From Chloroflexota bacterium (lineage in GTDB: Bacteria; Chloroflexota; Anaerolineae; Anaerolineales; Villigracilaceae), in NCBI GenBank assembly GCA_016234495.1, contig JACRBI010000038.1:1-64000 (forward strand): 64,000 nt of DNA. The letters run 5' to 3'. This document shows, one piece after another, positions 34,896 through 36,999 of this stretch. The notes beneath the pieces are model-generated. The model did no database searches and had not been told where the DNA came from. It saw only the letters and a program-made list of their open reading frames with translations. Every line of letters begins with the position of its first letter. Position 1 is the first letter of the stretch. Made by a program: the position numbers and the translations under genes.

Positions 34896-35399
34896 ATGAG
34901 AATTGCCATCGTTGAAAGTGGCGGCAAGCAATATCGCGCCGTCGAAGGCTCCACGATCGATGTGGACCGCCTCGCCTATGAAGTAGGCAAAAAGTTTGAT
35001 TTTGAACGCGTCCTGCTCATGGCAGACGGAGATGTGGTCATGGTCGGTACGCCGACTGTCGGCGAGATTACAGTCTCTGCCACAGTGGTTGACCACGTCA
35101 AAGGCCCCAAGGTTACCTCTTTCAAATATCGCCCCAAGAAACGCATCCGTGTGAAGGGTGGTCATCGTCATTTCTACACCCGTTTGATGATCGATTTTAT
35201 CGGCAAAGCCGGTGAAGAGCGCAAGGTTGAGGCCAAGAAGGAAGTTGCCGCAGTCGTTGAAGTTGAAACTGACCAGGCGGCGGAAGAACCCAAGGTCGAG
35301 AAGCAGAAAAAGGCTTCGACAAAGACCGCGGTGAAGAAATCCGCAGCACCCAAACCAGCATCCAAGTCTTCGGCAACCAAGAAGACTGACAAGAAGTAA
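34896..35399 (+). CDS. rplU: 50S ribosomal protein L21 with Lys/Ala-rich extension
   Basis: The 167-aa product starts with a normal L21 (MRIAIVESGGKQYRAVEGST to about residue 103, with FKYRPKKRIRVKGGHRHFYT). It continues with about 60 extra residues rich in Lys, Ala, Glu and Ser. L21 binds 23S rRNA in the large subunit. The basic tail is absent from typical L21 and may reach into solvent or bind nucleic acid. Confidence 0.93.
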   Translation: MRIAIVESGGKQYRAVEGSTIDVDRLAYEVGKKFDFERVLLMADGDVVMVGTPTVGEITVSATVVDHVKGPKVTSFKYRPKKRIRVKGGHRHFYTRLMIDFIGKAGEERKVEAKKEVAAVVEVETDQAAEEPKVEKQKKASTKTAVKKSAAPKPASKSSATKKTDKK

Positions 35400-35413: not shown

Positions 35414-35674
35414 ATGGCGCATAAAACAGGCGGCGGATCAACCCGCAACGGTCGTGACAGCAACTCCCAGCGTTTGGGTGTAAAGCGTTACGCCGGTCAA
35501 TTTGTTCTTTCCGGCAATATCCTTGTCCGCCAACGCGGAACCAAGATCAAGCCGGGTATTAATGTGTTGGTTGGCAAGGATGACACCTTGTTCGCAACCG
35601 CAGACGGTATCGTGATGTTCGATGTTGTGCATGGGCGCAAGCGCGTAAATATCGTGCCTGCCGAGGTGGAGTAG
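35414..35674 (+). CDS. rpmA: 50S ribosomal protein L27
   Basis: The 86-aa product begins [20 protein letters not shown], the conserved N-terminus of L27 that reaches the peptidyl transferase centre, and is of normal length. It has no N-terminal cleavage extension of the Firmicutes type. It follows rplU by 14 bp, the standard order. Confidence 0.96.
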
Positions 35675-35675
35675 C

Positions 35676-36209
35676 ATGAAAGCTGAAATCCATCCTACAG
35701 TGTACGATGCAAAGGTGACCTGCGCATCCTGCGGCAAAACATGGGTGACCACTTCCACCAAGAAGGAATTGCGCATCGATGTTTGCTCCAACTGCCATCC
35801 GTTCTTTACCGGTGAAGCAGCCCGCATCATGGATATCGAAGGTCAGGTGGACCGCTTCTATAAGAAGCTTTCAGCCCGCCAGACTTATGTCGAACAGCAG
35901 AAAACCAAGGAAGAGTCCGCCAATTCACCTGACCGCTCAATTGATGACCTTGAGCTTTCGCCACGCGCAACGGATGCGCTCAAGAAGGCTGGTATTCTGA
36001 GCTTTGGTCAGATGCTTGCAAAACTTGGCGAAGGCAATGCGGCTGTGTTGGAGATTTCCGGCTTTGGTCAGTCATCTCTTACTGCGGCCAAGAAGAAGCT
36101 GCGCGCTTTGGGTTTTGAAGTCCCCGAAGTTCCAGATGCTCCCAAGCCGCCCAAAGCCCCCAAAGTTGCTGCTGAAGCCCCGCAAGCAGAAGCCGAAGCA
36201 GGCGAATAG
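35676..36209 (+). CDS. rpmE: 50S ribosomal protein L31 fused to an RNA polymerase alpha-CTD-like domain
   Basis: The 177-aa product is more than twice the normal L31 length. Residues 1-66 are zinc-type L31 (Cys16, Cys19, Cys37, Cys40, then HPFFTG). After a charged linker, residues 89-147 read [20 protein letters not shown] and [20 protein letters not shown]. These match the helix-hairpin-helix C-terminal domain of the RNA polymerase alpha subunit. The E. coli Arg265 and Ser299 positions are kept (Arg97, Ser134), while Asn268 and Lys298 become Asp and Ser. A Pro/Ala-rich tail follows. The gene starts 1 bp after rpmA. Confidence 0.88.
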
Positions 36210-36349: not shown

Positions 36350-36919
36350 ATGCGCCACACACACGGCTCCATTGAAGTTGTCTGCGGTTCGATGTTCAGC
36401 GGCAAGACCGATGAGTTGATCCGCCGGCTGGTACGAGCAACGATCGCCAAGCAAAAAGTCCAGGTTTTCAAACCCGCCATAGATATCCGCTACGCGGTGG
36501 AAAAAGTCGCTTCTCACGCAGGCTCAACCTATGACGCGATCCCTGTTGAAAAAGCCGCCGAGATTCGCTCACGACTGGATGCGGATACAACGGTCGTTGG
36601 AATCGATGAAGCGCAATTTTTCGACCCTGAAGTTGTGACCGTTGCACAGGAATTGGCTTCACGCGGCTTGCGGGTGATCGTGGCCGGCCTCGACACCGAT
36701 TTCCGCGGAGAGCCGTTCGGCTCCATGCCCATCCTCATGGCCGAGGCGGAGAATGTCGCAAAACTTCATGCGATCTGCATGGTCTGCGGTGACGACGCCT
36801 CACGCACGCAAAGACTGGTCAATGGCAAGCCCGCCCGTTATGATGATCCCGTTGTGATCGTCGGGGCTTCTGAAATGTACGAAGCGCGCTGCCGCCTGCA
36901 TCACGAAGTCCCGCGCTAG
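36350..36919 (+). CDS. tdk: thymidine kinase
   Basis: The 189-aa product is a type II thymidine kinase: Walker [32 protein letters not shown], and the zinc-binding CMVCGDDAS with a C-terminal CRLHHEV. It phosphorylates thymidine in the salvage pathway. I choose the ATG at 36350 with AGAGG before it; an earlier in-frame ATG lies in the repeat. The stop codon is inside the first unit of a 21-bp tandem repeat. Confidence 0.93.
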
Positions 36920-36999
36920 TGGGGCGAAGTCCCGCGCTAGTGGGGCGAAGTCCCGCGCTAGTGGGGCGAAGTCCCGCGCTAGTGGGGCGAAGTCCCGCG
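36905..36999. repeat. 21-bp tandem repeat, about 4.5 units
   Basis: The unit GAAGTCCCGCGCTAGTGGGGC is repeated almost perfectly, with the last copy changing to GCGTTAAATTGG. The first copy is the 3' end of tdk and gives its TAG stop. The unit length is a multiple of three, so an in-frame open reading of RDFAPLA appears on the other strand. Confidence 0.9.

Follow-up and report, generated by a model that had tools for sequence, protein, structure and literature searches.

Ribosomal protein L31 joins the two halves of the ribosome, and in E. coli NusG and NusA link the ribosome to the polymerase. In a Chloroflexota bacterium of the class Anaerolineae (order Anaerolineales, GTDB family Villigracilaceae), rpmE encodes an L31 that continues into a segment resembling the C-terminal domain of the RNA polymerase alpha subunit (alpha-CTD). 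The gene lies in a stretch of 64,000 nucleotides (the window; contig JACRBI010000038.1 of assembly GCA_016234495.1), and it raises the question of where this segment came from and what it might do on a ribosomal protein.

These bacteria are common in digesters and sediments. A core ribosomal protein with a transcription domain that is kept across much of a class would offer a natural test of ribosome-polymerase linkage outside E. coli and, if the domain binds RNA, a promoter-recognition fold would have been turned into a ribosomal part; either way, fusion-bearing ribosomes should show unmodelled density on the 30S head. We found no published description of an L31/alpha-CTD fusion, as judged by titles and the openings of abstracts, and the accessible portion of a review (PMC10931766) mentions none. 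The fusion architecture may well be displayed in protein databases already.

The fused protein and its two parts

The features of the locus, all on the forward strand, are the following.

34896-35399, + strand: rplU (bL21), which opens the ribosomal cluster and encodes a long, basic C-terminal tail (ORF list, named by sequence reading)
35414-35674, + strand: rpmA (bL27), directly 5' of rpmE (ORF list, named by sequence reading)
35676-36209, + strand: rpmE fusion ORF, an uninterrupted frame of 177 aa
35676-35873, + strand: bL31 part of rpmE, zinc type, residues 1-66 (PF01197, 5.1e-25; NCBIfam NF000612, 2.2e-25)
35874-35933, + strand: linker, residues 67-86, predicted continuation of a long helix at 48-82 (AlphaFold2 secondary structure; dN/dS 0.185)
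35934-36125, + strand: alpha-CTD-like helix-hairpin-helix domain, residues 87-150, elsewhere given from 84 (PF03118, 3.5e-9; VIA Z 11.7; dN/dS 0.134)
36126-36206, + strand: variable Pro/Lys/Ala/Glu tail, residues 151-177 (pLDDT 51-59; dN/dS 0.353)

A single base separates the L27 stop from the rpmE ATG, with GAGGTGGAG just 5' of that ATG. The gene order is bL21-bL27-bL31, followed by a tdk-like gene (thymidine kinase; neighbours named by sequence reading). We considered the possibility that the extension arises by read-through from a neighbouring rpoA and rejected it, because rpoA lies on another contig (C36) and the tdk-like gene follows L31. Chance similarity or a frame error was ruled out by the profile matches and by recurrence of the fusion in the genomes of relatives. 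The original prediction had judged a sequencing error unlikely, the frame being continuous; the frame is indeed open, and a full-length match in 57 of 61 close genomes (the window's own included; the other four gave an RpoA-sized match only) indicates that the fusion is not a sequencing artefact. As separate observations, bL21 (34896-35399) is 167 aa long, against about 100 aa usually, and ends in a long C-terminal tail rich in Lys, Ala and Glu, and a 21-bp tandem repeat of 4.6 perfect copies (window positions 36904-36999) overlaps the end of the tdk-like gene.

Residues 1-64 match Ribosomal_L31 of Pfam (PF01197; 5.1e-25, 87.9 bits against a cut-off of 27) over model positions 1-63 of 65, and NCBIfam assigns the fusion above cut-off as 50S ribosomal protein L31 (TIGR00105, 82.1 bits against 38.35). 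The four zinc ligands (C16, C19, C37 and C40) are all present in the translation and these cysteines are invariant in two alignments, A1 (26 rows) and A2 (22 rows), in agreement with the proposal that residues 1-66 are a zinc-type L31. In this segment, its full set of zinc ligands and the adjoining bL21 and bL27 genes, the protein resembles bL31A (RpmE; PF01197/TIGR00105), whereas ordinary bL31, in Bacillota and at other loci, ends at about residue 65-75 and the fusion has some 110 more residues with a folded domain. Unfused Chloroflexota L31s, among those that were read, often have a charged low-complexity tail in place of the domain. Since the fusion is the sole PF01197 match in the window's genome, it is presumably the bL31 that is incorporated into the ribosome, where it would sit at the B1b/B1c bridge.

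A different function, off the ribosome, would be that of a free regulator binding its own mRNA or DNA, in autogenous control or in a zinc response. According to the part of PMC10931766 available to us, bL31 of E. coli represses its own translation, which is in favour of such a function, but the repression maps to the N-terminal segment of bL31. The single PF01197 match in the genome, and hence the lack of any sign of a zinc-free paralogue for exchange, also agrees with it. Yet fused L31s of families f20 and f10 (L053, L168, L169, L208 and L209), which stand outside alignments A1 and A2, have lost most or all of the zinc ligands and keep the alpha-CTD-like domain, which indicates that the domain is not tied to zinc. 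We regard a regulatory function of the free protein as improbable.

The C-terminal part matches RNA_pol_A_CTD (PF03118) over residues 78-143 (3.5e-9; score 36.7 bits, cut-off 23.8), so that the profile searches proposed with the original prediction gave matches above cut-off for both the L31 and the alpha-CTD models. PF03118 was found twice in the window's genome, in the L31 fusion and in RpoA; the latter is encoded separately, on contig C36, and has its own CTD, and the L31 domain is not attached to an alpha-NTD. The RpoA models of NCBIfam align to residues ~63-149 of the fusion, below their cut-offs. All 22 members of alignment A2 (21 named sequences and the window) match L31 and 19 of them match RNA_pol_A_CTD at E ≤0.01, while two also match Pfam HHH_5.

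An AlphaFold2 model made with 22 sequences had a mean pLDDT of 76.6 and a pTM of 0.42, a value at which little can be read into how the domains are arranged. By ten-residue blocks, pLDDT was 73-90 over residues 1-40, 54-66 over 41-60, 77-89 over 61-150 and 51-59 in the tail, and helices were predicted at residues 48-82, 89-92, 96-104, 110-118, 121-125 and 132-144. A Foldseek search with the predicted model returned bL31 chains first and alpha-CTD chains next. In VIA the best score (Z 11.7) was to E. coli alpha-CTD (1.2 Å over 64 residues, 30% identity); the predicted model superposes on the helix-hairpin-helix of alpha-CTD, and another match reached 0.8 Å over 57 residues. VIA rows 1-39 were bacterial or plastid RNA polymerase or alpha-CTD entries, and Dmc1/Rad51 appeared from row 40 (Z 9.3), mixed with more polymerase rows. 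The helix-hairpin-helix that had been proposed for residues 89-147 is thus present in the predicted structure as well as in the sequence profile.

Distribution and ancestry of the added domain

A survey of L31 in Chloroflexota, as the original prediction had suggested, placed the fusion in one class. In an even draw of 400 genomes of the phylum, 43 were fused, that is 37 of 37 in the window's order and 6 of 24 in the rest of the class. None of the 339 Chloroflexota genomes outside the class had it, the best match there (6.7e-39) covering L31 positions only; this zero rests on the best-E value per genome among the matches listed. Three longer-looking L31 cases outside the class (G068, G293 and G446) proved on reading to lack the domain. 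Within the class, 296 genomes were surveyed and at least 102 were fused among the matches listed, a genome being counted if its match reached position 135 or beyond of 164; G462, whose match extended that far, was excluded after its L31 had been read and found unfused. The close-genome and class surveys together place the fusion in 31 family labels.

The named records with the fusion (21 loci, L084-L104) are titled Anaerolineaceae, Anaerolineales, Anaerolineae or Chloroflexi/Chloroflexota bacterium, and the matches of the 59 loci after L104 stop at or before query residue 104. The fusion was found in none of 81 genomes of Bacillota (the phylum of a Paenibacillus), 79 of which gave an L31 match, and in none of seven genomes from assorted phyla, which had been picked from loci already known to be L31-only. 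The coverage was therefore Chloroflexota, Bacillota and these seven genomes. Within the genomes searched, the fusion is specific to one Chloroflexota class.

A profile of the L31 domain found 51 Chloroflexota alpha subunits (1e-18 to 6e-8), with the best matches mostly in the window's order. For trees, 134 fusions were reduced to 120 distinct and then to 72 non-redundant sequences. All 72 of these L31-borne domains (L31-CTDs) have an insertion of 3-5 residues between E. coli alpha positions 284 and 285, and every one of the 47 alpha subunits compared from the class has one of 3-4 residues; the insertion is absent from E. coli alpha and from all 21 alphas of the rest of Chloroflexota. The L31-CTDs also nest among the alphas of the class (FastTree). 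Because the insertion is common to the L31-CTDs and the alphas of the class only, we conclude that the L31 domain derives from the class's own alpha-CTD. Judged by its sequence, it is a true relative of the alpha-CTD of its lineage and not a look-alike.

A sister domain is also found on NusA. In the window's genome, NusA (L360 1459-3348, contig C25) has an alpha-CTD-like domain at residues 452-503 (E 8e-5 among 30 proteins). An alpha-CTD-like helix-hairpin-helix stands near the end of NusA at L341-L343, L348, L350, L352, L353, L355-L358, L325 and L329-L331, and the NusA of L325/L342 has two copies. In some genomes of the class the same module occurs on other proteins (L326, L327, L328 and L332), among them PPK2 (polyphosphate kinase 2), SNF2-type, GH18-like and other large proteins, and a repeat protein that combines five Pfam copies with sigma-70 region 4.

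In a first tree, made without these other carriers, all 72 L31-CTDs formed one clade (support 0.95). A single origin on L31 was nevertheless rejected, as the clade broke up once 11 domains of other carriers were added, and also in an 83-row FastTree of hand-picked sequences (29 L31, 13 NusA, 3 other and 38 alpha). In the latter tree, the main L31 clade (0.942) included two L328 domains (large proteins of G669), most NusA domains formed a clade with the PPK2 domain (0.872), the L31s of families f108, f126 and f130 stood beside this NusA clade (0.865), and the L31 of f115 fell inside the NusA domains of f115 (0.952). In G490, an f115 genome, the nusA frame ends ~0.8 kb from rpmE on the same contig; in G467, the other f115 genome, the NusA domain is present and the L31 match is weak. 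The grouping of the f115 L31 with NusA domains suggests that L31 probably gained the domain at least twice, and perhaps three times, although with ~65 aligned residues the deeper order of the tree is not safe. The domain of the main L31 lineage could have come either from rpoA directly or via a NusA-type carrier.

A precedent for an alpha-CTD-like segment on a core protein other than L31 comes from the beta' model NF011498 (PRK14906), which we take to be a beta'/alpha fusion. The L31 domains of L102 and L104 align to positions 1317-1369 of this model, with scores below its cut-off. The carrier in that case is a polymerase subunit, whereas L31 is a ribosomal protein.

Residues, charge and selection in the domain

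The DNA-binding 265 determinant of alpha-CTD consists of R265, N268, G296, K298, S299 and E302. Among 120 distinct fusions aligned with alphas, R265 was kept in 111 and G296 in 114, compared with 24 for N268, 71 for K298, 65 for S299 and 7 for E302, while N294 was kept in none and replaced by Gly in 118. Each of these seven residues (R265, N268, N294, G296, K298, S299 and E302) was kept in 49 of 49 Chloroflexota alphas compared, L237 and L257 having been lost at domain extraction. The L31 of the window keeps R265, G296 and S299, and has D for N268, G for N294, S for K298 and A for E302; in its genus, K298 is lost throughout, replaced by S in 28 of 30 sequences and by A in the other two. The earlier remark that the DNA-contact residues are kept only in part thus applies to the fusions at large. 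As these residues are eroded in L31 and conserved in all alphas examined, promoter-type DNA binding by the L31 domain is unlikely.

The same erosion argues against one function suggested in the original prediction, a tether of the ribosome to DNA. In such a case the domain would bind UP-element-like or nucleoid DNA and tie ribosomes to the chromosome. Its predicted alpha-CTD fold and the retention of R265 would suit this, but the losses at N268, N294, K298, S299 and E302, four of which are substituted in the window itself, make it highly improbable.

The substitution N294G yields a G-x-G hairpin in the L31 domain. At position 305, K is found in 96% of the L31-CTDs of the window's genus and in 82% of the others, and alphas mostly have E/D/Q/A there; at 308, R is present in 100% and 92% of L31-CTDs, respectively, and already in 66% of the alphas of the order. 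In the main lineage, K at 304, K/R at 305 and R at 308 are nearly fixed. The net charge of the last hairpin-helix is +3.77 in 120 L31-CTDs against +1.10 in 21 alphas of the order. The charge of the whole L31 domain is +0.78 over columns 5-65 (120 rows) and, with flanks, -1.93 in the 29 hand-picked L31 rows across the class against -1.52 for the alphas there, a difference that is small and depends on where the domain is cut.

This pattern fits a hairpin domain that may no longer read promoters yet would still need its hairpin and basic helix. The L31 domain thus resembles the RNA polymerase alpha-CTD (PF03118) in predicted fold, sequence profile and class-specific insertion, and differs from it by the missing alpha-NTD, the eroded DNA determinant and, in the main lineage, K305 and the basic last helix.

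Among 30 congeneric sequences (326 of 435 pairs with usable dS, saturated pairs being dropped), the median dN/dS was 0.134 for the domain. The L31 part had a lower value (0.073), linker (0.185) and tail (0.353) higher ones. The domain is therefore under purifying selection, weaker than that on L31 proper and stronger than that on linker and tail. These values bear on the possibility that a promiscuous module hopped onto L31 and is merely tolerated there. That some genomes of the class have the same module on PPK2, SNF2-type, GH18-like and sigma-region-4 proteins would be expected in that case, but the low dN/dS of the domain, its retention in all 37 genomes of the order that were surveyed and its probable gain on at least two occasions speak against mere tolerance, to which we give little credence.

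Candidate roles on the ribosome

We hypothesized two roles for a domain held at the 30S head, contact with the transcription machinery and contact with RNA. In the first, the main rival of the reading that we favour, the L31 domain would bind the acidic domain of NusA or the alpha-CTD and so hold RNA polymerase near the 30S head. In 21 of the 25 fusion genomes whose NusA was seen, the NusA match runs into a homologous C-terminal domain; three of these 21 also belong to the query alignment. G548 was counted by its match to position 169 of 196, although domain profiles did not call it. Two further fusion genomes (G484 and G509), in which no NusA was seen, are outside the 25. By domain profiles, in a smaller set, the NusA domain was called in 10 of 15 genomes with the fusion, in 2 of 11 without it and in none of the 4 outside genomes, L359, which by eye looks like a decayed copy of the domain, being left out of the count. 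The sister domain on the NusA of fusion genomes is newly described here.

The NusA domains are mostly acidic (13 domains, charge -10 to 0, mean -5.3; -4 in the window's genome), and in the window's genus they have E at positions 304 and 305, opposite K in L31. This arrangement, together with the grouping of the f115 L31 with NusA domains and the closeness of nusA to rpmE in G490, agrees with a contact between the two proteins. According to the accessible text of PMC7171158, the AR2 and N-terminal domains of E. coli NusA both bind alpha-CTD, and that of PMC12820379 describes docking of the NusG C-terminal domain near uS10 in a 30S-RNAP complex; both would make such a contact more plausible. The AR1/AR2 domains of gammaproteobacterial NusA are comparable in being small helical domains at the end of a gene-expression factor, AR2 binding alpha-CTD (PMC7171158, accessible text), and differ in that the L31 domain is on the ribosome; the NusA domain of the class is closer to them in place and charge.

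NusA AR domains are probably akin to the HhH fold, and the face of alpha-CTD that AR2 uses overlaps the DNA determinant. That determinant is eroded in L31, which weakens the case for a contact of this type. The pairing is also not obligatory: the NusA domain was not seen in four of the 25 fusion genomes (f108 and f130), and it does occur in 12 or more genomes regarded as unfused (f16, f112, f115, f101 and f102), their unfused state resting on weak L31 matches among the matches listed. Moreover, Pfam RNA_pol_A_CTD was not found in the window's NusA up to E 0.1. The co-occurrence of NusA domain and fusion is confounded by kinship, and for this reason we attach no probability to it. A contact of the L31 domain with NusA or alpha-CTD is a serious possibility, though a doubtful one. 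The more elaborate proposal that alpha, NusA and L31 carry a matched, alpha-CTD-derived set forming a built-in coupling device, the ribosome docking NusA-bound polymerase via hairpin domains of opposite charge, seems to us rather unlikely.

The reading that we favour, tentatively and somewhat short of an even chance, is that the L31 domain serves as an extra anchor at the 30S head, gripping the RNA backbone. In the proposed sequence of events, rpmE would have gained a C-terminal copy of the class's alpha-CTD module, from rpoA or from another carrier such as NusA. The fused bL31 would occupy the usual place, with its N-part on the 50S central protuberance and its C-part contacting uS13/uS19/uS14 and h41-h42 of the 30S head, and the long helix would carry the added domain past the contact point of the C-part. 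Hairpin and basic last helix could then grip an RNA backbone, either that of the 16S rRNA of the head or that of mRNA or nascent transcript nearby. A second anchor would thereby be added to the B1b/B1c bridge, and subunit association might be steadied. In the accessible parts of PMC7530986 and PMC9966373, the N-part of bL31 is anchored on 5S rRNA and uL5, its C-part reaches uS13, uS19 and uS14 and touches h41 or h42, and subunit association is impaired when E. coli bL31 lacks its last 7-8 residues.

Several findings count against an RNA anchor. The G-x-G hairpin also occurs in the acidic NusA domains, so its presence alone is no argument for RNA binding. The basic pattern is not general, as K/R at 305 is missing from all five L31s of families f115, f108, f126 and f130 (L194, L202, L205, L206 and L207), and the charge of the whole domain is modest. 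That most fusion genomes have a sister domain on NusA suggests a link to the transcription machinery instead. Finally, no matching rRNA dock was found: the 16S head of 10 fusion genomes has no new or enlarged helix, the lengths of h33-h43 being like those in 7 non-fusion genomes of the class. For these comparisons, 16S rRNA was recovered from 24 of the 34 genomes queried and was not found in the window's own. Two further features of these rRNAs were observed. In all 21 Chloroflexota 16S sequences aligned (L294-L314), the helix 39 interval falls 12-14 nt short of its E. coli length, and one of them (L308, G254) has an h44 interval of 148 nt where the other 20 have 104-113 nt, which looks like an insertion.
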